Assembly (NCBI RefSeq): GCF_020923435.1
Contig: NZ_CP087263.1
Location: 2,995,970 to 3,059,969, forward strand
Direction of reading: 5' to 3'
Origin: Brevibacillus humidisoli
GTDB lineage: Bacteria > Bacillota > Bacilli > Brevibacillales > Brevibacillaceae
Length of the DNA: 64,000 nt
Shown: in pieces, positions 53,105 to 64,000 of the stretch
How positions within the stretch are numbered: the first letter of the stretch is position 1
Layout of the letters: every line of letters begins with the position of its first letter
Made by a program: the position numbers and the translations under genes
Notes under the pieces: model-generated
Databases searched by the model: none
Told to the model about the DNA's origin: nothing
What the model saw: only the letters and a program-made list of their open reading frames with translations

Positions 53105-53842
53105 CTACAGTTCAATGATCCGAATTCCCTGCGCGCATACTTGTGGATCCACTGGTTTGCCTTTGGATCGAACCAGCGTATAGTATTCATAGTTGCCAAT
53201 GACACTGAAGTCGCCTTCCAATACACCAGGGTAGGCCCGGTTCAGAGAGTAGGCCTGACTCTGATGTGCACGCAGTGCCTCCCCTTTTGTCTGCCGATAG
53301 GGGGAGATGTCCACTTTGCCGGTAATAGGGACAGCCGCCTGTGGTCCCTTGTCCTGGCAGTGGTCATAGTAATGCGGGATCGATACGAAGTAAAAATCAG
53401 AGTAATGTTCGGGATGCAGCATTGGCTCCACCTGCAGTACGGCCTGTACCGTCGCTTTTGACAAGGTGATATGATCCGGGTGTCCCGTCACACCATCTGG
53501 CGGAAAGGTGACCACCACGTTCGGCTTTACTGCGAGAAGCGTCTCAGCAATCCGCCCGGTTAGCTTGGCAAAGTCCTGGTCGGCAAGCGAACCATCTGGA
53601 TAGCGATAGAGAAAGGTCTCTGTAATCCCCAGGATGGAAGCCGCCTGCCGCAGTTCCTGCTCGCGGTGGCTGGCCAGTTCCTCGCGGCAGGTAAACTGAA
53701 ACGGTCCCGACTTTCCCTTGCAGCCGGAAGTGGCACAGACCAGATAGGTCTCCTCTCCAGCTTCGTGATACTTGGCCAACGTCCCCGCACACGCGAACGA
53801 TTCATCATCAGGATGAGGAAACAAAAACAACAGTTTTTTCAT
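53105..53842 (-). CDS. PIG-L family deacetylase, cytoplasmic
   Basis: 245 residues, Zn-dependent N-deacetylase of the LmbE/PIG-L/BshB/MshB fold. Metal ligands in FLFPHPDDESFACAGTLA (start) and GVTGHPDHITLSKA (~120); ends with TGKVDISPYRQTKGEALRAHQSQ, typical of sugar-conjugate deacetylases or amidases. No signal peptide. Last gene of the operon; its ATG overlaps the kinase stop (ATGA). Likely removes an acetyl or acyl group from an amino sugar imported by the same operon. A bacillithiol-pathway role is less likely, since no bsh genes are adjacent. Confidence 0.92.
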   Translation of the reverse strand: MKKLLFLFPHPDDESFACAGTLAKYHEAGEETYLVCATSGCKGKSGPFQFTCREELASHREQELRQAASILGITETFLYRYPDGSLADQDFAKLTGRIAETLLAVKPNVVVTFPPDGVTGHPDHITLSKATVQAVLQVEPMLHPEHYSDFYFVSIPHYYDHCQDKGPQAAVPITGKVDISPYRQTKGEALRAHQSQAYSLNRAYPGVLEGDFSVIGNYEYYTLVRSKGKPVDPQVCAQGIRIIEL

Positions 53843-54876
53843 TTTTCAACACCTCTGTCTGATTCCGCCTTCTCCCTTTTGTTCAAGTACGATATGCCTT
53901 TGGCGATCACTCCGGAGATCGGGTCGTGTTTGGCCGTGTCGACTACCACCTGTGGCGTGAAGTGTCGCACGTTTTCTACGACCAGTCGCCTCACCTGCTG
54001 ATCGTTTTGCAGAACGCCACCTTGCAGGATCATCTTGAATGGCTGCTCGTGCATCGACAACTGCTGAATCACTGCCCGCGCCGCTTGTGCCAGCTCCTCC
54101 GCTGCCAGTGTGAGGATTCGGGCTGCCACAACATCGCCTTCTGCCGCTGTCTGACTGACCAGGGGAGAGAGTTCGCCTACTTTTTCTACCGAATAAGAGG
54201 GGCCATATGTCCAATTATACAACTCTTCCACCTGTGACAGACCAAGATAGCGAAGCAGACGATCGGTCAGCCTGGTTGGCTCCCCGCGACCGTCGGCTGC
54301 CTTTAGGACGGCAGTAATCATCTGTTTACCGATCCAATAGCCGCTTCCCTCATCTCCCACACGATGTCCCCAGCCGCCAGCCCGAGCGGTTATCCCCTGT
54401 CCATTGATCCCATAGGCAATCGAACCGGTGCCTGCGATCACCAGGATCCCGGCGTCTCCGTCGGTAGCTCCCAACAAGGCGGCAAATCCATCGTTTTCCA
54501 CAATCAGGTGGTGAACGTGGATCTTCAGTTGGGCCAACACCTCTTTTACCATCTCCACGATTACCTGCCGGTCGTATTCCGTATCAAGACCAGCCATCCC
54601 AAATACTGCGCACTCCACTTCCCACACCCTGCCCTCTGTGGAGGGTGAGGCATCTGCTTCCTCAGTGGAGGGTGTTCCCTCTGCTGCTGTCGTTGCCATC
54701 GCTGTCCGAATGGCATTGGTCAGTTCACGAGCCGCTGCGGTTGTGCCTATCCCCTGGTAGTTGCAGGATCCGGCACGACCTGTTCCGAGGATGCGCCGAT
54801 CTGTAGCCACCATTGCGGCCAAGCATTTTGTTCCCCCTCCATCTACAGCGAGCAGCGGGACCTGTATACGCTTCAT
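53839..54876 (-). CDS. BadF/NagK-type sugar kinase
   Basis: 345 residues, ASKHA-fold kinase. Phosphate motifs: LLAVDGGGTKCLAAMV, FGMAGLDTEYDRQ, the Asp in VENDGFAALLGATDGDAGILVIAGTGS, and GWGHRVGDEGSGYWIG, which is the pattern of N-acetylglucosamine kinase. Also ILQGGVLQND for the adenosine site. The ATG at 54876 shares one base with the lyase stop (TGATG). It would phosphorylate the sugar released by the other enzymes. Residues ~65-82 hold an inserted Glu/Thr/Ser-rich loop. Confidence 0.9.
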   Translation of the reverse strand: MKRIQVPLLAVDGGGTKCLAAMVATDRRILGTGRAGSCNYQGIGTTAAARELTNAIRTAMATTAAEGTPSTEEADASPSTEGRVWEVECAVFGMAGLDTEYDRQVIVEMVKEVLAQLKIHVHHLIVENDGFAALLGATDGDAGILVIAGTGSIAYGINGQGITARAGGWGHRVGDEGSGYWIGKQMITAVLKAADGRGEPTRLTDRLLRYLGLSQVEELYNWTYGPSYSVEKVGELSPLVSQTAAEGDVVAARILTLAAEELAQAARAVIQQLSMHEQPFKMILQGGVLQNDQQVRRLVVENVRHFTPQVVVDTAKHDPISGVIAKGISYLNKREKAESDRGVEK

Positions 54877-56384
54877 CAAGATTCACTCCATCCATCCACC
54901 ACCTGATCCAGCCAAAGCTGAGCGTCCCCGATGGTTTGTCGCCTTGTCTGAAGCCATTCCTGATTGACCTCCAGCCGCTTTTTCCGCTGTTCAATCATTC
55001 GCTTCATCACCTGCGGACTTGGCCCGCCCGGCAGCGTGCGCACCATGACAAAATGGGCAGGATCAAGCGCCAATCTCAACTGATCCTCCGTCAGTTTCAG
55101 CTTGCGCTTGATCACCGCTTCTGCCGCCTCATTCACAAGATCCAGGCTGATCTGGTTGGCCGCCAGCCCTTGCTGCATCGCTTCGCGGACGACACGGCTG
55201 ACGATATGATGAGATGTGCGGAAAGAAAGACCATCCGTTCGCACGAGGATGTCAGCCAACTCTGTCACGGTGGCAAAACTGTTCTTGGCCCGTTCGAGCA
55301 AGAGTTCCTTGTCCACATCGATCGTTGCGATCACGCATGCGAACAGTCGATACATTTGCTCCAGCACGGACAAGCTGCGCCAGGCATAAGGCTGCATATC
55401 ATCCTCCGTGTCGACGATATCGCCAAACGGCGTGTTGTGCATCATCGTCAGCACAGTCGCAGCATTCCCGGCCGCACTGGACAGGAGGGAACGCATATGC
55501 TCAAAGGAGACAGGGTTTCGCTTTTGCGGCATGATAGAGCTGATCTGGACGTATGGGTTGGCCACTCTCAGCACAGCAAACTCCTGTGTGCACCACTGCA
55601 GCATATCCTGCACCGTCCGCCCCAGGTTGACCGCGGCCAGCTGTACTGCGGCAGCCGTTTCCCCCAGATAATCGGCTCCGCCGATCGCGTCGTAGGCATT
55701 TTCTACAACATCGTCAAAGGCGAGCAGTTCTCTCATCCGCTCCCGACTGATCGAAAAACCCGACGTCGTCAGAGCTGCAGCGCCCATACTGCTCCGATTG
55801 ACCGTGTGAAAGGCATGGATGAGACGATCAATGTCGCGATCAAGGGAGTCGACCACCGCAGTGATATAATGGGCCATCGTCGTCGGCTGTGCCTGCTGCG
55901 TGTGGGTATAGCCGATCATCACCGTCTCCATATGCTCTTCGGCAAACTGGAGCAAATGCTCTTTCAGATAGAGGGCCGATGAGAGGGTGTGCAGCAGTTT
56001 GTCACGCAGCACCAGGCGATAGATCGTTACCCCCATATCATTGCGGCTGCGGGCCAGGTGCAGATTGCCGGCTACGTCACCGGCAACTTCCAACAGCCGA
56101 CTCTCTACCTGAAAGAACAAGTCTTCAAACTGCCCGGTATACGGTGAGCGGCGCAGTTCTTCCAGATCAAGCTGGCGAATGGCCCGGGCAATCGCCCTAG
56201 CTTCCGCTTCACTGATCAACTCCTGTTCGCGGAGCATGATCAGATGGGCCTTGTTCACAGCCATCATCGGCTCCAGCAGATGGTTCTTCGCTTCGTTAAA
56301 GGCAGGCTCCAGCACGACCTCTGTATAGGTTTTGCCCGGGAAGCTGGTGCCCTCCTGCTGAAGCACTTTTTCTCTATAATTCAT
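54876..56384 (-). CDS. Argininosuccinate-lyase-family enzyme, probably catabolic
   Basis: 502 residues of the fumarase/aspartase superfamily, ArgH branch. Signature SSIMPQKRNPVSFEHMRSL (~285), GNLHLARSRNDMGVTIYR, and YTHTQQAQPTTMAHYI with the catalytic regions; the C-terminal extension brings it above the ~460 of housekeeping ArgH. No argG is present. It sits between a creatininase-type amidohydrolase and a sugar kinase, so a role in arginine synthesis is unlikely. Superfamily chemistry is elimination of fumarate from a C-N or C-O bond, as in EDDS lyase of the same branch. Overlaps the upstream gene by 11 bp. Confidence 0.88.
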   Translation of the reverse strand: MNYREKVLQQEGTSFPGKTYTEVVLEPAFNEAKNHLLEPMMAVNKAHLIMLREQELISEAEARAIARAIRQLDLEELRRSPYTGQFEDLFFQVESRLLEVAGDVAGNLHLARSRNDMGVTIYRLVLRDKLLHTLSSALYLKEHLLQFAEEHMETVMIGYTHTQQAQPTTMAHYITAVVDSLDRDIDRLIHAFHTVNRSSMGAAALTTSGFSISRERMRELLAFDDVVENAYDAIGGADYLGETAAAVQLAAVNLGRTVQDMLQWCTQEFAVLRVANPYVQISSIMPQKRNPVSFEHMRSLLSSAAGNAATVLTMMHNTPFGDIVDTEDDMQPYAWRSLSVLEQMYRLFACVIATIDVDKELLLERAKNSFATVTELADILVRTDGLSFRTSHHIVSRVVREAMQQGLAANQISLDLVNEAAEAVIKRKLKLTEDQLRLALDPAHFVMVRTLPGGPSPQVMKRMIEQRKKRLEVNQEWLQTRRQTIGDAQLWLDQVVDGWSES

Positions 56385-57153
56385 CGTTGGTTCCCCTCTC
56401 TCCTGACAGCTTTCTTCTCATCTCCAGCCAGTTGCAGATCAGTAGGTTCATGTTTTTGGCAGCCTCGGCGACAATCGCTTTTCCCGCTTGCAGGGAGGTT
56501 TGCTGGATCCGGCCGGTATATCCCGCCCAGCCAGAAGGAGCGCTCTCTACCAGCACATACGGAAGCGGAGATAATGGCGATATCGCATCCAGTTCCTCAT
56601 CTTCCTCCTCCACGGCGACCAGATCGGGGCGGAGTGCTTTCACTGCTGACATCTCGTACGGACCGCCGTGCCCCCGGCCCGCGGTTCCTTGGAACAGTCC
56701 CTGCTGCTCACAAAACGGGACAGCCGCCATCTGCCACCAGTTGATCAACAAAAAGCTGGCATCCTTGTATTCCGCGGTAACCGCTTCGGCTACCGTGCGC
56801 GAAGGGCCCATATTGGCGTCATGAGCATTAAGCAGGACGATGTTGCGTATTCCCAACTGACAGATACCTGTTACCACATCCCTCAGGTAGGCGATGTATA
56901 CCTCTGGTTGGATGGAGACCGTTCCAGGATAGTCGACCGTTTTCCCTGGACATGGCGAAAAAGGAATGGACGGATAGATCAGCGGTTTGCTCTCTGGATC
57001 GATCAGCTCCGCAAACCCCTCAGCGAGGATCTGGTCAGTTCCGTATGGCGAATGCGGACCATGGTATTCAAGCGAACCCAGCGGAAGCACTGCATAGTTC
57101 GCTTCTGCCAGGGCAGTGCCAAGCTCTCGTCCATGTAGATCGGCTATCTTCAT
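56374..57153 (-). CDS. Creatininase-family amidohydrolase
   Basis: 259 residues. Metal-site motifs of the creatininase/MftE fold: LPLGSLEYHGPHSPYGTDQILAEG, LLNAHDANMGPS and AGRGHGGPYEMSAVKAL. These enzymes open cyclic or linear amides or remove peptides. ATG at 57153 has GGGGAGG 5 nt upstream; the ATG immediately before it is too close. Cytoplasmic. Member of the eight-gene operon; the substrate is probably an amide of the imported compound. Confidence 0.88.
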   Translation of the reverse strand: MKIADLHGRELGTALAEANYAVLPLGSLEYHGPHSPYGTDQILAEGFAELIDPESKPLIYPSIPFSPCPGKTVDYPGTVSIQPEVYIAYLRDVVTGICQLGIRNIVLLNAHDANMGPSRTVAEAVTAEYKDASFLLINWWQMAAVPFCEQQGLFQGTAGRGHGGPYEMSAVKALRPDLVAVEEEDEELDAISPLSPLPYVLVESAPSGWAGYTGRIQQTSLQAGKAIVAEAAKNMNLLICNWLEMRRKLSGERGTNDEL

Positions 57154-57223
57154 CATATCCTCCCCGTGTCATGTGCGGGAGAGGAGCCCGCCGTAGTGTG
57201 ACTAACTCCTCCCCCGTCTCGTC

Positions 57224-59773
57224 TTATTGCTTCAAGCTGATCATGTTGACAAACATCCGAATCGCTCCTGGCACGAGGGCCGGGATTTCACGATACCAGA
57301 CGAGTGTGCTGTAGGTATAGGTGCCTTTGCCATACGGCGCCGTCAAAAAGATGCCAGTAAACTCTTCTTCACCGGGATCTCCTGTAGAGATCAGTTCTAC
57401 GTATTCATCGCCCCACTCAGATGCATTGTAGAGCGAACGATCCTGAATCCAGCCCTGCCAATCCTCTTCTGTGATCTTGTTCGGCGTGTTGAAAATCGGG
57501 TGATCGGGTGCCAGCATCGTCACATGCGAAGTTTCGTCCGTGACGCGCCACTCGATGGACGGACTGCCGACCGTGATCGGGTAAGGTGCCAAGTCGGGAG
57601 ACCAATTGTCAAACGGTTTGTGGTACTGTACGACGAGATTGCCGCCGTCTTTTGCATACTGCAGCAGACGGCCATTGCTCGGGATCAACTCAGGCCTAAA
57701 GCCGTAAGCACGGATGCCGAGCACGATCGTGTCATACTGACTCAGATCGCCAGATTCAATCTCTTTCGCATCCAGTTCGACCACATCCACACCCAACTGA
57801 CGCAGGTACTGATCAATATCGTCAAACCCGCTGGAGACATAGCCTACCTTTAGTCCCTCCGGCACAACCAAATCAAATGCCTGGATGGTCAGCTCTGTCG
57901 GCTGGATCAAATACGTTCGGCCAATATGCGGATACTGGATCACCTGTACATCACGGCTGCTTTCTACGCTGCCGTTGGCTGCCTTTGCCGTAATCATGTA
58001 CTTGCCTTTTGGTACAGAAGCGGCCGGTTTGACGGTAAAATCGGTCGATTTCGTCTCCCCTTTGCTGGCGAACGAGAGTGTCCGGGAGGCAGGCTCAACC
58101 GTCCACCCATCCGGCACCTGCAGCGTGATCGTAGAGGTAGCTGCACCAGGCATATAGTTCCGTACCGTCACGTTTACCGGAATCGGCTCCTGTGGATGGC
58201 GCGTATTGAGCACGGTCGCCTGCGGGTCGAGCGATACCGAGAAGGCAGGCAGTACCGCAATCGTCTGGGTTGGTGCAGCACGAACCATACTTTCACTGCC
58301 AAATGCTTCCCAGCTTACGTCAGCCGTAACGGCGGACGCCTTGTAGGGATGAAACAGCGGCGCATCGTTTGGCACCGTTACCGCAAAGTCGGCCGAAACC
58401 GTCTGATTGTAGCCCAGTTCGGCGAAGTGTGTCTCACCCAACGGCTTCACCTGCCAGCCGGCTGGTGCGTTTAGCCTCAGCTCCGCCTGGTTCAGTTTGA
58501 CGCTGCCGCCATTGTAAGCGGTCACGGTCATCTTGGTTGTCTGTCCGGCGACCAGTTCACCCGTCTCCGGTCTCAGCTTGGCTACGAGCGAGACCGCTTC
58601 TGCACTGGCCTTGTCAAGCTGCTCCGCCTTTACCCGCAGACGGTGCAGCAGATCGATCCGCGTCGCTTCATCCAGCTGGGACGCCTCTACCTGTGCGACT
58701 GTCTTCTCCAGATCGCGCTTCATCTCATGTACTTCCCGGGCCACTTCGGCAAACTGCGGATACGCCTCCATCACTTCCTGCGCATCTTTATGGAGCGTGC
58801 GCAGGCCTTGTGCCGCTTGCTGTCCGCCTGTTTTGGATGCTACTTCCTGGGCCAAATCAGCAAAGGTGTAGGCGATCCCATCGAAGAAATCCGCTTCTTT
58901 TTGCTTGTCGGCTTGATCGACTGCCCCTTCGCTGGTATTGGCCAGCTTGTAATAGTTGTAATGCGGCCCCTCATCGTAATGCCGGCCCATTCCCTGACTC
59001 TTGTGCATGAACCGGGATTCTTCACCCAACTGAAGATATGAGGCGCCGTATACTTCATCGTAGTCACCTACCGGCACGGATACGGTATAATCCTTCTCCG
59101 TAGCCGGCATGTACAGCTTTTTCACCTGCCATGGGTGCAGTCCCCGCTCCAGATGCTCCGGAAAAACGTCTGGATTGGCTGCATCCTGAAACGCCCTCAC
59201 AGTGAGAATGCTGATCGCCCTGTGGTGACCATGTTGGGAGGGATCATTTAAAAAGGCAGGTATCAAGACGTCAGGCCGCAGTTCACGAATCTTGCGAATG
59301 AGACGTTCGTAAACCACCTTCTCTCCCCACAAGGAGAGTGTCTCGTCTGGACTTTTAGAGAAACCGAAATCAAAGATGGGGTCGTTGATCTCTTCGCTGA
59401 GAATGCCCAGTGTCACATTGTTGGCAGCAGATGCTTCCTGCAGCTCCCGTGTGCGAATCACGCCCAAAGCGTTGAACAGCTCACTGCCGATCTCATTCTG
59501 CCCGCCTTCACCGCGGTTGGCGATGATGCTCGATGTGTCCACACCCCGCCCCAACGCCAGATAAGCAAGCATCGCGCTGTGTTCGTCGTCCGGGTGGGCA
59601 CCCGTGTTCATGGCGCTGGCGATGGTGGTGAGAGGTTTGATTGCTTTCCACAGATCGACCACGCCCCGCTCGGCATAAGCGGTTTGCGAGAGTGCCGGCA
59701 GCAGCAGACTAAACAGAAGCGCCACCGACGTGACAAGAGATAACAGTCTGGTGAATGATTTCCCCTTTCTCAT
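57224..59773 (-). CDS. Secreted multidomain PIG-L deacetylase
   Basis: 849 residues. Signal peptide (LLSLVTSVALLFSLLLPALSQ, cut near AYA). A PIG-L domain with ASAMNTGAHPDDEHSAMLAYLA and PSQHGHHRAISILTVRAF supplies the Zn ligands. A helical link follows (~330-400), then two NEW3/Ig-like beta domains (LRPETGELVAGQTTKMTV; QEPIPVNVTVRNYMPGAATSTI) and a C-terminal glutamine-amidotransferase-like domain (KVGYVSSGFDDIDQYLRQLGVDVVELD). Extracellular, so it deacylates polymer or conjugate before import by the ABC system encoded upstream. RBS GGAGGAACG. Confidence 0.92.
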   Translation of the reverse strand: MRKGKSFTRLLSLVTSVALLFSLLLPALSQTAYAERGVVDLWKAIKPLTTIASAMNTGAHPDDEHSAMLAYLALGRGVDTSSIIANRGEGGQNEIGSELFNALGVIRTRELQEASAANNVTLGILSEEINDPIFDFGFSKSPDETLSLWGEKVVYERLIRKIRELRPDVLIPAFLNDPSQHGHHRAISILTVRAFQDAANPDVFPEHLERGLHPWQVKKLYMPATEKDYTVSVPVGDYDEVYGASYLQLGEESRFMHKSQGMGRHYDEGPHYNYYKLANTSEGAVDQADKQKEADFFDGIAYTFADLAQEVASKTGGQQAAQGLRTLHKDAQEVMEAYPQFAEVAREVHEMKRDLEKTVAQVEASQLDEATRIDLLHRLRVKAEQLDKASAEAVSLVAKLRPETGELVAGQTTKMTVTAYNGGSVKLNQAELRLNAPAGWQVKPLGETHFAELGYNQTVSADFAVTVPNDAPLFHPYKASAVTADVSWEAFGSESMVRAAPTQTIAVLPAFSVSLDPQATVLNTRHPQEPIPVNVTVRNYMPGAATSTITLQVPDGWTVEPASRTLSFASKGETKSTDFTVKPAASVPKGKYMITAKAANGSVESSRDVQVIQYPHIGRTYLIQPTELTIQAFDLVVPEGLKVGYVSSGFDDIDQYLRQLGVDVVELDAKEIESGDLSQYDTIVLGIRAYGFRPELIPSNGRLLQYAKDGGNLVVQYHKPFDNWSPDLAPYPITVGSPSIEWRVTDETSHVTMLAPDHPIFNTPNKITEEDWQGWIQDRSLYNASEWGDEYVELISTGDPGEEEFTGIFLTAPYGKGTYTYSTLVWYREIPALVPGAIRMFVNMISLKQ

Positions 59774-59907: not shown

Positions 59908-61635
59908 TCAGACGGCCGTCCCGGCATTGTCTCCAGCTACTTTTCGAGAAAAGAACAGAACGATAATGATAAGTGTGATTTGCAGTACTCCATAGGCACA
60001 CGCCGTACCGAACTCAAACGCGTACATACGCTGGAAAATAGCAACGGAAAGCGGTGTAGCGCTTGGTGTAAACAGCAGGATGGAGGCGACGAATTCGCCA
60101 ATTCCCTGCACAAACGCCAGCAGTGTTCCTGCCAGCACGCCGCTTAAAGCCATCGGAAAGACGACGCGCCGAAAACTGTACCACCAGGTAGCCCCCAGAT
60201 TGCGGGCCGCTTCCTCCACCGAACTGTCCATCTGCATCAACGTGGCCGACGTAGAGCGGAACACCAGCGGCAGGTGTCGGACGAAGTAAGCCAGCGGCAT
60301 AATCCAAAAGGTGCCCACCAAGACCTGCTGAAAGCTAAAGGCAGACGGTTCGCTGAAGGCGGCGATCAGGTTGACCGCTACAACCGTCCCAGGCAGTGCC
60401 CAAGGAAGCATGATCAGCACATCGAGCAGTGTTTTGCCTCTGAACTTCAATCGGACCATCGCATACGCAGCGGCTACGCCGAATATGACATTTCCGATGG
60501 TGGCGATAAAACTCAGCTCAAAGCTGGTCGCTATCGGCTCCCACGTATCACTGTCGGTAAACAGCTCGATGTAATGATCAAGCGTATAGATAGGCGGCAA
60601 GATCTGCACGGTCCACGTCCCGTCTTCTGAGAAAGAGATCAGCACCAGCACGAGGATCGGCAGCATCAGCACGATCACCCCAAGCGTTGACAGCACGATC
60701 GAGACGTAGCGTCCTACAGGGCTTTTCACCTCTGTACGATGCACACTTACCCCTTTACTCAGGTTCTGGTAATTGCGGGCACTTTGATACCAGCGCATGA
60801 TCAACAAGAATAAAATGGAGACGATCGACAGAATCGTCGATTGGGTGGCAGCCATCTCCAGATTGCCGTTGGTTCGCGACAGGTATATCTGCATCGTCAT
60901 CGTGCGATCGACGCCAAAAATCAACGGCGCGGTGTAGGAAGCCATCGAGATCATAAAGACCAACAGGGAGGCCGCTACCATCGCCGGTGTCAGCATCGGC
61001 AAGATCACACGTCGCCATACGGTGAAGCGACCTGCTCCCAGGCTGGCAGCCGCTTCTTCCAGAGACGGGTCCAGCCCCTTGATCGCCGCGGAGGCGGTCA
61101 TGTAAAAGTAGGTGTACATCGTAAACGTGTGCACGACCAGCACGCCCCAGATGCCTTTTAAGGAAAAGGGGACCTGTTCCAGTTGAAACAGCCATTGCAG
61201 CGCGCGGGGGATAATGCCGCTCTCGCTGTACAAAAAGGTAAACGAGAGCACACCCACCAGCGGCGGCAGCGCCATCGGCACCATGGCCAGCACCGACAAA
61301 ATCTTGCGGCCGGGAAACTCGTACCGCTCCAGCAAAAACGCCATCGATACGCCTACGATGCCGCAGCAAATGACGCTTAACACCGAGATGTACAAGCTGG
61401 TCCAGAGAGCTTCCAGATTGGCTGGATGCTCAGGATCAAAAAAGTTGGCGTAGTGTTGCAGTGAAAACTGTCCCTCCACCTGTGCACTTTGCAAAAACGT
61501 CTCAAACAGCGGGTAGATCACATAAGCCAGCAAGATGAGAAATAACGGCGCGACCAGGACATATACGAAGTAGGGGGAGGAGGTGAGGGACGTCCTTGGT
61601 TTCGGTGAAATCCGTTTTGACAGTTCCAGCTTCAT
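59908..61635 (-). CDS. ABC importer permease, fused two-domain (FbpB type)
   Basis: 575 residues with 12 membrane helices in two homologous halves, each with a permease EAA loop (SLEEAAASLGAGRFTVWRRVILPMLTP and SVEEAARNLGATWWYSFRRVVFPM). This fused build is typical of iron(III), thiamine and phosphonate importers. ATG at 61635 behind GGGGGATC. It lies 11 bp after the ATPase gene and 134 bp before the secreted deacetylase; no terminator is evident in that gap. Confidence 0.93.
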   Translation of the reverse strand: MKLELSKRISPKPRTSLTSSPYFVYVLVAPLFLILLAYVIYPLFETFLQSAQVEGQFSLQHYANFFDPEHPANLEALWTSLYISVLSVICCGIVGVSMAFLLERYEFPGRKILSVLAMVPMALPPLVGVLSFTFLYSESGIIPRALQWLFQLEQVPFSLKGIWGVLVVHTFTMYTYFYMTASAAIKGLDPSLEEAAASLGAGRFTVWRRVILPMLTPAMVAASLLVFMISMASYTAPLIFGVDRTMTMQIYLSRTNGNLEMAATQSTILSIVSILFLLIMRWYQSARNYQNLSKGVSVHRTEVKSPVGRYVSIVLSTLGVIVLMLPILVLVLISFSEDGTWTVQILPPIYTLDHYIELFTDSDTWEPIATSFELSFIATIGNVIFGVAAAYAMVRLKFRGKTLLDVLIMLPWALPGTVVAVNLIAAFSEPSAFSFQQVLVGTFWIMPLAYFVRHLPLVFRSTSATLMQMDSSVEEAARNLGATWWYSFRRVVFPMALSGVLAGTLLAFVQGIGEFVASILLFTPSATPLSVAIFQRMYAFEFGTACAYGVLQITLIIIVLFFSRKVAGDNAGTAV

Positions 61636-61646
61636 TCAGATCCCCC

Positions 61647-62723
61647 CTACCCCACGAAGTAAATGCTTTCGACAGGAATGTGCAGGGCAAGCTCCTCACC
61701 GCGCTGTCTGACTCTGTGCCCCTGGTTGACAAACATCGCCCGCAGCCGATTCTCCCCGATCTCTGTCACGTAATTGACACTGGCTCCGGTGAATTCCGAA
61801 ACGAGGATTTCCCCCTTGACTACATTGGCATGATCGTCCGCTTTCGCCTCACGAATATACTCCGGTCTGATTGAGACAGTCATCTTATTCCCCACCGCCA
61901 ACTGATTGGCCGGCGAGGTATTGTCCACCTTGCCGATGAGAACAAGACCAGGAGCCACCTCAATCTGCGCTTCCCCGTCGGCAATCGCGGTAATCGTTCC
62001 TTCCCACAGATTGGTTTCACCGATAAAGGAGGCGACAAACCGGTTCAACGGACGGTTGTAGATCTCATCCGGCGTACCGATCTGCTGGACCACGCCACTG
62101 TTCATCACCATAATGCGGTCAGACATCGACATCGCTTCCGCCTGATCGTGCGTCACATAGATCGTCGTAATGCCCAACTCCAGCTGCAGGCGCTTGATCT
62201 CGAACCGGGTCTCCTCCCGCAGCTTGGCATCCAGATTGCTAAGCGGTTCGTCCAGCAGCAAAATCTGCGGTTCGATCACCAGGGCACGCGCCAGAGCCAC
62301 CCGCTGCTGCTGACCGCCTGAGAGTTGATCGATCCGTCGGCTGCCGTACCCTTCCATGTGGACGAGTGCGAGGGCTCGTTCCACTTTTTTCTTGATCTCA
62401 TCGCGCGACAGCTTGCGTACCTGCAGGCCGAACGCGATGTTTTCAAACACAGTCATATGAGGAAAAAGGGCGTAGTTTTGAAACACCATCCCCGTATTGC
62501 GCTTATTGGGCGGCAGTGCGGTCACATCCCGATCACCAAACAGGATGCGGCCGGCAGACGGAAAATAAAAACCGGCGATCATCCGCAGTGTCGTGGTCTT
62601 GCCGCATCCACTGGGGCCGAGAAAGGTAAAAAACTCTCCCTGCTTGATCTCGACGTCTACATCATCTACGCCTCGCACGCTGCCAAATTGTTTGCTTACA
62701 TGCTCCAGTGTCACACCGCTCAA
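61647..62723 (-). CDS. ABC importer ATPase (PotA/FbpC type)
   Basis: 358 residues. Walker A GPSGCGKTTTLRMIAGF, signature LSGGQQQRVALARAL, Walker B PQILLLDEPLSNLDAKLREE, switch His in TIYVTHDQAEAM, and a C-terminal TOBE domain. TTG start at 62723 behind GGGGGG. Drives the permease encoded next. Specificity lies with the binding protein. Confidence 0.95.
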   Translation of the reverse strand: MSGVTLEHVSKQFGSVRGVDDVDVEIKQGEFFTFLGPSGCGKTTTLRMIAGFYFPSAGRILFGDRDVTALPPNKRNTGMVFQNYALFPHMTVFENIAFGLQVRKLSRDEIKKKVERALALVHMEGYGSRRIDQLSGGQQQRVALARALVIEPQILLLDEPLSNLDAKLREETRFEIKRLQLELGITTIYVTHDQAEAMSMSDRIMVMNSGVVQQIGTPDEIYNRPLNRFVASFIGETNLWEGTITAIADGEAQIEVAPGLVLIGKVDNTSPANQLAVGNKMTVSIRPEYIREAKADDHANVVKGEILVSEFTGASVNYVTEIGENRLRAMFVNQGHRVRQRGEELALHIPVESIYFVG

Positions 62724-62777: not shown

Positions 62778-63914
62778 TTACTCGCTGCCTTTTCCTTTGA
62801 TGTTTTCATCCCAATACTGCATCCACTCTTTTTCCTTGGCCGCCATCACAGCCCAGTCGATCTCCATCGGTTTCAGCTCAATTCCCTGCAGCCAGGAAGG
62901 CAGCGTATCTTTGCTGATGTCGCTTCTGGTCGGGATCTGGTACAGGGTCTCGGCCAACTCGACGCGAAGCTGTTGATCAAACAGGAATTCGTAAAACGCC
63001 TTGGCCGCCTCCATGTTCTTGGCTCCTTTGACAATACCTACTCCATCGACAAGGATCGGAGCCCCGCTCTCGGGATAGATGAAGTCGAACGGCTGGTTGT
63101 TCTTCTCTTTCTGGATCATGATGTCCTGCAGGTTCCACAGTGAGATCAAGCCTTCCTGACGAGCCAGCTTGAGGTAGAGGTTGGTCGGGTTTTGCGCGTA
63201 TTCCTTGGTGTTGGCGTCCAGCTTCTTCAACCACTCATACCCTTTTTCCGGTGTATCCGCTCCTTGACGGAAAATCATCGAGGAGTAGATTGTGCGCATC
63301 GTCCCCGACTGCAGGACACCGCGGATGATGATTTTGTCTTTGTACTTTGGATCGAGCAAGTCGTCCCAATCCTGAGGCGCCTCTTCTTTTTTGAGCGCCT
63401 GCGAGTTGTACATGATCACTTCCGGCAGCAGCATCTCGCCATACCAGCGATCTTGCGGGTCTTTGTACAGCTCCGGAATCTTGTCGCTGAAGCTCGGTTT
63501 GTAGCTCTCCAGCAATCCCTCGTCAGCGGCCGTCATCAGTGCGGATTGCGTCCCACCCCACCAGAAATCGGCTTGGGGATTCGCCTTTTCGGCGCGTACC
63601 CGCTCCAGGATTTCCTGAGCCCCCATGGTAAGTACTTCAACTTCGATGTTCGGGTGTTTTTCCTCGAACTTCGGTTTTACGGCTTCAATCACGTTTTTGT
63701 CTCGTGCTGTGTAGATGATCAGCTTCTGCGACTCTGGCTGCTCCGCCCCTGTGTCACCGGACGAATTCTGTTCCCCCCCTGCCGGTTGACTCGTATTGTC
63801 GGCTGATGGCTGTGCTCCTTGACCGCCTCCGCTACAAGCTGCAAGCGTCAGCGCCAGCGTACCGGCAAACACGCCTTGCATCCATTTTTTCAACAGACTG
63901 CTTGATTTTCTCAT
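62778..63914 (-). CDS. ABC importer substrate-binding lipoprotein (Fe/phosphonate-type fold)
   Basis: 378 residues from ATG 63914 (GGGGG upstream). Lipoprotein signal ending LTLAACSGGG, a Ser/Gln/Gly-rich tether, then a type II periplasmic-binding fold (KLIIYTARDKNVIEAVKPKFEEKHPNIEV; FWWGGTQSALMTAADEGLLE). The family includes iron(III), 2-aminoethylphosphonate and putrescine-like binders. The paired tyrosines that bind Fe(III) in FbpA are not evident to me, so an organic ligand is more likely. First gene of the eight-gene operon; a cre-like site lies 51 bp upstream. Confidence 0.93.
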   Translation of the reverse strand: MRKSSSLLKKWMQGVFAGTLALTLAACSGGGQGAQPSADNTSQPAGGEQNSSGDTGAEQPESQKLIIYTARDKNVIEAVKPKFEEKHPNIEVEVLTMGAQEILERVRAEKANPQADFWWGGTQSALMTAADEGLLESYKPSFSDKIPELYKDPQDRWYGEMLLPEVIMYNSQALKKEEAPQDWDDLLDPKYKDKIIIRGVLQSGTMRTIYSSMIFRQGADTPEKGYEWLKKLDANTKEYAQNPTNLYLKLARQEGLISLWNLQDIMIQKEKNNQPFDFIYPESGAPILVDGVGIVKGAKNMEAAKAFYEFLFDQQLRVELAETLYQIPTRSDISKDTLPSWLQGIELKPMEIDWAVMAAKEKEWMQYWDENIKGKGSE

Positions 63915-63964
63915 GCCTTTTCCCCCTTTTTGATATTCCGTCATTTATCTAACAGCTTTTCGGA

Positions 63965-63979
63965 AGGAAACGCTTCCAA
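63965..63979 (-). promoter_or_regulatory. Candidate CcpA cre site
   Basis: Minus strand TTGGAAGCGTTTCCT fits the Bacillus cre consensus WTGNAANCGNWNNCW at every fixed position and is nearly palindromic. It lies 51-65 bp upstream of the binding-protein ATG. The core promoter is not clear and may run past the window edge. Confidence 0.7.
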
Positions 63980-64000
63980 GACGCTGTAGACGGCCCCGAT

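Follow-up and report, generated by a model that had tools for sequence, protein, structure and literature searches.

What does a lyase of the argininosuccinate lyase (ArgH) type do when it lies between an amidohydrolase and a sugar kinase, with no argG in the neighbourhood? This question is raised by a locus of Brevibacillus humidisoli, studied here in a stretch of 64,000 nucleotides that is referred to as the window. The gene (54876..56384, minus strand, ATG start) encodes a protein of 502 aa, predicted here to be a glucosaminyl-malate (N-acylglucosamine C4-diacid) lyase, and matches the Pfam families Lyase_1 (144 bits, cut-off 27) and ASL_C2 (59.7 bits, cut-off 27.3). A sequence-only reading had proposed a fumarate-type lyase of new specificity outside arginine synthesis, which keeps the SSIMPQKRNP loop and sits between a creatininase-type amidohydrolase and a sugar kinase. 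The loop is indeed present at residues 282-291, the neighbouring reading frames (56374-57156 and 53839-54879) match the families named, and argG is absent from the window neighbourhood. An excerpt of PMC13411527 gives the aspartase/fumarase superfamily consensus as GSSxxPxKxN, and the lyase carries its SSxxPxKxN part as SSIMPQKRN (282-290), preceded by I and not G. The predicted model has the fold of this superfamily, with Z about 41 against ASL and about 30 against ADSL and the fumarases.

The 502-aa lyase is not the arginine enzyme. The genome contains an ordinary argG-argH pair elsewhere (locus L002), and an ArgH separate from the family lyase is found in 19 of 20 genomes. The fumarate-side and catalytic residues R114, N115, T160, H161, S282, S283, K288 and N290 are kept in 58 of 58 aligned family rows. 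The contacts on the arginine side, which we take to be S29, D33, Y323, Q328 and K331 of duck delta-2, were scored at S22, D26, Y316, Q321 and K324 of the genome's own ArgH. These positions hold S in 21, D in 21, Y in 22, Q in 22 and K in 23 of the ArgH rows (n=23), whereas the family rows (n=58) show F/Y in 55, K/R in 52, D in 57, E in 54 and K in none. The replacement of D26 by K/R in 52 of 58 rows is a reversal of charge. On the tree, the 23 ArgH rows fall on one side (support 99) and 57 of the 58 family rows form one group (support 100), so that the family stands apart and does not group with ArgH. The gene argG is near the family lyase at 0 of 80 loci and near true argH at 13 of 20 control loci, the other 7 of which also lack it nearby. 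The arginine-side residues are thus not all kept and another argH exists, and the residues, the tree and the separate argGH pair support the proposed new specificity outside arginine synthesis.

The statement that the protein is about 40 residues longer than ArgH is true only of the shorter ArgH, since the same genome's ArgH has 481 aa (a difference of 21) and, among 22 other ArgH-like reading frames compared, 14 measure 457-477 aa, one is shorter and 7 are longer. A long helix (residues 457-501) closes the predicted model at its C-terminal end. Structurally, ArgH (ASL; TIGR00838) resembles the lyase in the SS loop, the catalytic residues, the ASL_C2 domain and the fold, as seen with M. tuberculosis ASL (6ien, Z 41.4, rmsd 2.1 over 449 residues) and with duck delta-2 crystallin holding argininosuccinate (1tjw, Z 41.3). 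The lyase differs from ArgH by its replaced arginine-side residues, its longer C-terminal end, the lack of argG and its amino-sugar operon.

Among solved proteins, the best sequence match is the EDDS lyase of Chelativorans sp. BNC1 (6g3d and others; 248 bits), for which kinship had been suggested. The two folds are alike (6g3e, Z 39.8, 462 residues, 30% identity), and the alignment of residues 30-502 on 33-496 takes in the C-terminal end of the lyase. On the tree, however, EDDS lyase is placed on the ArgH side (support 83) with a long branch of 2.26, and not within the family. Its pocket residues Q159, D290 and Y320, as named in an excerpt of PMC12363623, correspond to H161, V292 and F320 in the window lyase; across the family, the place of Y320 is Y in 8 of 58 rows, and those of Q159 and D290 are never Q or D. 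These results do not establish the suggested kinship. The best NCBIfam model is NF005218 (PRK06705, "argininosuccinate lyase"), which probably represents the same broad family, although its 475.7 bits stay below the curated cut-off of 883; among 398 sampled class genomes, none holds a match above this cut-off. The third-best model is the XcbC-type lyase of bacterial coenzyme M synthesis (NF052535), at 249 bits and far under its cut-off of 575; that enzyme belongs to a different operon.

The setting of the lyase is an amino-sugar operon, all of it on the minus strand. It includes a ROK-family regulator, of which the window holds the 3' end (63941..64000; whole gene L053:1911-3089, the remainder lying outside) and which scores 167.6 bits against the NagC model, below the cut-off of 650. 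It is followed by an ABC importer, which consists of a solute-binding protein of the SBP_bac_6 type with a lipoprotein-like N-terminus on reading (62778..63944), an ATPase (61647..62723) and a fused permease with two BPD_transp_1 stretches (59908..61635). The next gene encodes a secreted PIG-L amidase/deacetylase of 849 aa with NEW3 domains (57224..59773), which has a signal-peptide-like N-terminus on reading and keeps the metal motif AHPDDE and H184. This multidomain protein matches the mycothiol amidase Mca weakly (1.1e-08), below the cut-off. The creatininase-family amidohydrolase (56374..57156; 148.5 bits, cut-off 31.3) precedes the lyase, and a BadF-type amino-sugar kinase (53839..54879; 146.7 bits, cut-off 31.5) comes after it. 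The lyase frame overlaps these two by 11 bp and 4 bp, so the three genes appear operon-like. The kinase scores 109 bits against NagK_SO3507, below the cut-off of 370, and its best solved relative is the MurNAc/GlcNAc kinase 8zo3. Lastly, a small PIG-L hydrolase (53105..53842), with no signal peptide apparent on reading, is nearest to BshB2 (Bca) among the NCBIfam models, yet at 115.6 bits it is below the cut-off of 195; the genome's bshB1, which is above its cut-off, is located elsewhere, outside the lyase operon.

The lyase belongs to a widespread family sitting in amino-sugar uptake operons. Neighbours within 8 kb were compared in 20 genomes between the family lyase locus and the true argH locus, giving 11 against 0 for secreted PIG-L, 12 against 0 for ROK, 5 against 0 for NagK, 7 against 0 for PfkB, 2 against 0 each for NagB and the SIS deaminase, and 0 against 13 for argG. 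This recurrence is partly due to the choice of queries, since the partner queries came from family loci, with the argH loci as control. Two of the control stretches are short (L194 and L199), and the control of genome G542 is its second ArgH place; the best place reads through TGA. A genome scan kept the best 80 of 590 relatives. Across 80 family loci, PIG-L was found at 35, ROK at 35, PfkB at 18 and NagK at 13; the locus sets overlap, L104 and L069 probably being the same contig. Among 149 relatives, the lyase is present in 43 and the secreted PIG-L in 39, all of them lyase-positive. The uptake systems vary (Fe-type ABC, SBP_bac_1-type ABC, SSS or TonB), and across phyla these differing transporters are repeatedly accompanied by the secreted PIG-L, ROK and sugar kinases. 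Glucosamine-6-phosphate deaminases of different folds occur near the lyase at few loci, as NagB above its cut-off (L063 and L041) or as SIS/NagB-II or GlmS-like proteins below the cut-offs (L146 and L112). At locus L150, the neighbour matching ArgH is its aspartase. Among 105 loci, L067 alone showed a cysteine-desulfidase-like gene (SDH_alpha) close to the lyase, and this was given no weight.

The sequence-only reading named no substrate; the operon and the neighbourhoods of related loci suggest an amino-sugar conjugate. Bacillithiol is a bacterial substitute for glutathione. An excerpt of PMC4360819 describes it as Cys-GlcN-malate and reports that a BshB2-type homologue cleaves bacillithiol conjugates, and the review PMC4101496 gives a core of N-acetyl- or N-acylglucosamine as the target of those LmbE/PIG-L enzymes that were known in 2014. 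Bacillithiol is proposed here because it joins N-acylglucosamine, the target of PIG-L, to a succinyl group, the target of the lyase family. We infer a homotetrameric enzyme of the aspartase/fumarase superfamily, which would release fumarate from a glucosamine-borne C4-dicarboxylate by anti beta-elimination, the most likely substrate being glucosaminyl-L-malate (GlcN-Mal), the backbone of bacillithiol. In the order and direction supposed, the secreted PIG-L would hydrolyse the N-acyl group (Cys or acetyl) of scavenged bacillithiol-type compounds, and GlcN-Mal would be taken up by the ABC importer. The lyase would then split GlcN-Mal into glucosamine and fumarate, the kinase would convert glucosamine to glucosamine-6-phosphate, and NagB would yield fructose-6-phosphate and ammonia, with the amino sugar sensed by the ROK repressor. 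On balance, we lean slightly towards the lyase being a putative GlcN-malate lyase that feeds glucosamine and fumarate to metabolism.

A subsequent search for bacillithiol genes showed links to the lyase in one phylum. At locus L107 (Acidobacteriota), the order is bshB1-bshA-PIG-L-lyase followed by a convergent bshC, with BshA at 497 bits (cut-off 273.7) and BshC at 432 bits (cut-off 265.8). A 902-aa reading frame of this locus was considered as a BshB-BshA fusion and dropped, as tblastn locates bshB1 immediately before bshA. Of 60 more loci from Acidobacteriota, 9 have bshC or bshB1 near the lyase, with queries that here too came from family loci; bshC, being convergent, is not co-transcribed with the lyase in L107 and in 7 of these 9. 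The linked loci are related, with 4 changes on the tree, 2 of them forced. The other 124 loci searched, Bacillota included, showed no bsh gene in the vicinity of the lyase (L087 gave a weak glycosyltransferase match), and 20 control loci, only one of which is acidobacterial, showed none near argH.

Several points count against the GlcN-malate reading. The bsh linkage was seen only in Acidobacteriota, among related loci and mostly with a convergent bshC; deaminases are seldom linked (5 of 80 loci by BLAST matches), and PIG-L, ROK, kinase and deaminase are all absent at 27 of the 79 scored loci (of 80, L137 gave no lyase reading frame), only 13 of these 27 being on short stretches under 15 kb. 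The creatininase and an Amidohydro_2 partner seen at 9 of 80 loci are not accounted for by it. ArgH-type enzymes mostly cut C-N bonds, and GlcN-Mal needs C-O cleavage. There is precedent for the latter, as Partovi et al. (2018, J Biol Chem) reportedly describe, by their title, phosphate elimination by a distinct member of the superfamily, an enzyme which we take to be of the XcbC type. Additionally, BshA is above the cut-off in 39 of 39 of the window's order, so that bacillithiol is made there, judging by the genes, and the lyase would threaten biosynthetic GlcN-Mal unless tightly controlled.

Other readings must be weighed against the same evidence. The reading as an ArgH paralog was rejected on the separate argGH, the tree group and the replaced arginine-side residues; these, together with the absence of argG beside the lyase, make a second ordinary argininosuccinate lyase (ArgH2) barely credible, even though the protein passes the curated argH cut-off (TIGR00838, 337.7 bits against 279.5). 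Degradation of an EDDS-type aminopolycarboxylate chelator or metallophore, with the Fe-type ABC importer serving for its uptake, would suit the best solved relative by sequence and the SBP_bac_6-type importer in the window, but the tree does not join the two lyases, the EDDS pocket residues are not kept, and other phyla use another ABC, SSS or TonB, often with ROK and a sugar kinase. It was ruled out as the main reading on the tree and the pocket, and we hold it to be improbable. A C-N lyase for an N-sugar-aspartate (for example an Amadori/Heyns compound of aspartate or an opine-like conjugate), releasing fumarate and an amino sugar, would cut the type of bond that enzymes of the ArgH branch usually cut; the amino-sugar operons fit it equally, and the family pocket gains the acidic D322 and E327, suited to an amine. 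The Heyns form would give glucosamine, and the kinase and deaminase would then use the amino sugar. As it leaves the two PIG-L amidases and the bsh genes near the lyase without a reason, we consider it unlikely, if conceivable.

The lyase might also act as a synthetic enzyme that combines glucosamine with fumarate, as part of a salvage or bypass route to bacillithiol. Reactions of the ASL type are reversible, according to an excerpt of PMC13411527, and some Acidobacteriota have bsh genes beside the lyase, but the operons carry a catabolic set (importers, kinases, some deaminases and ROK regulators) and the window's order has bshA anyway, which renders this quite improbable. Three further substrates were set aside. 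MurNAc, considered because of the kinase's best solved relative, was rejected on its ether acid, which is lactate; N4-GlcNAc-asparagine was rejected by reasoning that elimination would free ammonia rather than the sugar; and mycothiol has inositol as its aglycone, without a C4 diacid (PMC4360819, in excerpt).

Turning again to GlcN-malate, the excerpt of PMC4360819, which covers bacillithiol synthesis and S-conjugate cleavage, gives no fate for it, and among open-licence PMC titles and the beginnings of abstracts, none was found that links genes of the argininosuccinate lyase type with PIG-L and the breakdown of bacillithiol. Automatic annotation may file the lyase under arginine biosynthesis, because the curated argH cut-off is passed. 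Many relatives may be misfiled likewise, as 72 of 398 class genomes match PRK06705 at E <= 1e-100, and possibly also those of an acidobacterial group, in which 63 of 396 genomes have a match to the L107 lyase at E <= 1e-90. Alphaproteobacteria are expected to use glutathione and not bacillithiol. We give an even chance to the family being a glucosaminyl-malate lyase, the first enzyme to take apart the backbone of bacillithiol, and to the operon being a bacillithiol-scavenging pathway in several phyla, Alphaproteobacteria included. If this is true, the GlcN-malate half of bacillithiol would gain a fate, and the redox buffer of one bacterium would be food for another.

The ArgH-like lyase is encoded on the minus strand at 54876-56384 as a protein of 502 residues with Lyase_1 and ASL_C2 domains. 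In profile searches, its top score came from the PRK06705 model (475.7 bits, under the cut-off of 883); the argH model gave 337.7 bits, over its cut-off of 279.5, and XcbC ranked third with 249 bits. The closest solved relatives by sequence are EDDS lyase (248 bits) and Thermus thermophilus ArgH (206 bits). The AlphaFold2 model, built from 58 aligned sequences (mean pLDDT 95.2), has argininosuccinate lyases and delta crystallins as its top structural matches (6ien, Z 41.4; 1tjw, Z 41.3), with the EDDS lyase structure (6g3e) nearly as close (Z 39.8). The protein is a member of the argininosuccinate lyase/fumarase superfamily, not a member of ArgH, and its mechanism should be like that of argininosuccinate lyase and fumarase.

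The sequence-only reading had placed this lyase outside arginine synthesis, and the genome, the residues and the phylogeny all uphold that placement. The genome carries five Lyase_1 genes, among them an argG-argH pair at another locus (L002), whose ArgH retains YNKDMQEDK. The residue table compares 58 family rows (the window, 43 of 80 named loci and 14 others) with 23 ArgH rows. The catalytic and fumarate-side residues are identical in both, whereas S22, D26, Y316, Q321 and K324 of the genome's own ArgH become, in the 58 family rows, F/Y (55), K/R (52), D (57), E (54) and never K, respectively. These positions correspond to duck S29, D33, Y323, Q328 and K331, which we take to be the residues touching the arginine part. 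In an 84-row tree, ArgH (23 rows, support 99) is separate from the family (57 of 58 rows, support 100), and EDDS lyase is long-branched and falls to the side of ArgH (support 83). A protein 48-71% identical to the own ArgH is present apart from the family lyase in 19 of 20 family-lyase genomes, the sole exception being a Woeseiaceae MAG (G535). That the window lyase is not ArgH is close to certain.

Two other ArgH-like lyases are of note. The one family row outside the family group, L150 from an uncultured Selenomonadaceae, is a deep-branching ArgH-like lyase with an asparaginase of type II on one side and an aspartate ammonia-lyase on the other, and therefore points to aspartate metabolism, not amino sugars. 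The fifth Lyase_1 gene of the own genome (L005:1126-2679, at about 552 kb) encodes a very divergent ArgH-like protein of 517 residues; the ORF directly before it, judged by reading, resembles that end of a nonribosomal peptide synthetase which bears the carrier and thioesterase, and the lyase possibly serves a natural product.

From upstream to downstream, the minus-strand operon consists of a ROK regulator, a solute-binding protein, an ATPase, a permease, a secreted PIG-L protein with NEW3 domains, a creatininase, the lyase, a BadF/NagK-type kinase and a small PIG-L protein, so the lyase does lie between creatininase and sugar kinase as first described. The ROK gene (167.6 bits with the NagC model, under its cut-off) lies just past the window end. 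A 773-residue protein also encoded there (L053:3285-5606) may, from reading its letters, have a start like contractile-injection-system cargo and an end like an OTU-type protease. Two nagB genes lie elsewhere in the genome, as do bshA, bshB1 and bshC, which makes the operon's small PIG-L an extra paralog. In 17 loci from relatives, the lyase neighbours are ABC genes (14), kinase (14), secreted PIG-L (13), small PIG-L (9) and creatininase (3). At E <= 1e-80 the lyase was found in 43 of 149 relatives. Of these 43, 39 also carry the secreted PIG-L (E <= 1e-60) and four (G063, G064, G085, G109) have the lyase alone; the remaining 106 relatives have neither gene. These are not independent observations, because one family supplies most positives (37 of its 39 genomes). 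The metal motif AHPDDE and H184 are each retained in 36 of 37 secreted PIG-L sequences, and an N-terminal hydrophobic stretch passes a crude test in 27. In many genomes of one sister genus of the same family (e.g. G016, G018, G020), the secreted PIG-L gene is present as two neighbouring copies, and the G051 copy has one in-frame TAG.

The association reaches across phyla. Among loci of the best 80 of 590 relatives in named genomes, which span Bacillota, Chloroflexota, Acidobacteriota, Alpha- and Gammaproteobacteria and further groups, the lyase is accompanied by secreted PIG-L (35), ROK (35), PfkB kinase (18), NagK (13), Amidohydro_2 (9) and a glucosamine-6-phosphate deaminase homologue (5), and never by argG. 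Of the 79 scorable loci, 52 show one or more of four partner types (PIG-L, ROK, kinase, deaminase); of the 27 with none, 13 are on stretches under 15 kb. The partner queries were drawn from family loci themselves. As a paired control, 20 family loci were set against the true argH loci of the same 20 genomes: argG is near 13 argH loci versus no family locus, and no secreted PIG-L, ROK, sugar kinase, deaminase or Amidohydro_2 gene was found near the argH loci. The window's own locus was scored as lacking ROK, the gene being outside the stretch. Twenty extra Bacillota loci, picked from the 72 genomes that match PRK06705 at E <= 1e-100, show the same pattern (PIG-L 12, ROK 11, NagK 3). NagB adjoining the lyase exceeds the curated cut-off of 236.9 at L063 (306.7) and L041 (263.6); SIS proteins at L146 and L112 are closest to NagB-II or GlmS, under cut-offs. 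Uptake systems vary (Fe-type ABC, SBP_bac_1-type ABC, SSS symporter, TonB receptor). None of the nine Amidohydro_2 loci (L076, L077, L078, L085, L089, L090, L098, L099, L104) has a secreted PIG-L nearby, and this partner is perhaps a substitute amidase or marks another substrate class.

Substrates of the ArgH-type branch are succinyl groups, and the lyase probably acts on an amino-sugar C4-diacid. Splitting glucosaminyl-L-malate (GlcN-malate) requires C-O cleavage, for which fumarase is a precedent, and L-malate has the stereochemistry that fumarase uses; a superfamily member of coenzyme M synthesis reportedly eliminates phosphate, a second such precedent. According to a 2014 review (PMC4101496), the PIG-L/LmbE enzymes then known share an N-acetyl- or N-acylglucosamine core as their target. 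As a 2015 review outlines, bacillithiol is Cys-GlcN-malate: BshA couples UDP-GlcNAc and L-malate, BshB then deacetylates, and BshC putatively adds cysteine, while cleavage of bacillithiol S-conjugates by a BshB2-type homologue is demonstrated (PMC4360819). A 2025 paper calls bacillithiol the predominant low-molecular-weight thiol of bacteria (PMC12719100).

After the GlcN-malate idea was framed, bsh genes were sought near the lyase. At L107 (an Acidobacteria MAG), the order is bshB1, bshA, secreted PIG-L (overlapping the bshA ORF end), lyase and, 37 bp off, a convergent bshC. Of 396 genomes from the phylum to which G537, an Acidobacteria MAG, belongs, 63 carry the lyase (E <= 1e-90); these gave 60 loci, with G537 (the separate locus L101), G786 and G938 outside the set. 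In 7 of the 60, bshC is convergent with and adjacent to the lyase (gaps 4-250 bp), and convergent genes are not co-transcribed. At L281, a bshC cut off by the end of the stretch precedes a TonB-SSS-PIG-L-lyase run in the same orientation, and at L267, bshB1 lies about 8.5 kb from the lyase. With searched stretches averaging 18.5 kb, genomes of about 4.5 Mb and two or three randomly placed bsh loci, we estimate a chance expectation of about 0.5 to 0.75 of 60 loci, but the loci are related: the tree requires 4 changes, 2 of them forced. No bsh gene was found at the 20 argH control loci, only one of them acidobacterial, or near the lyase in the other 124 lyase loci searched, save a weak glycosyltransferase match. 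At Acidobacteriota loci such as L284, L288 and L302, PIG-L is divergent from a ROK-TonB receptor-lyase run, which suggests that a larger compound is taken up through the outer membrane. The bsh linkage in Acidobacteriota is real but moderate support for GlcN-malate, which we lean slightly towards as the substrate of the lyase.
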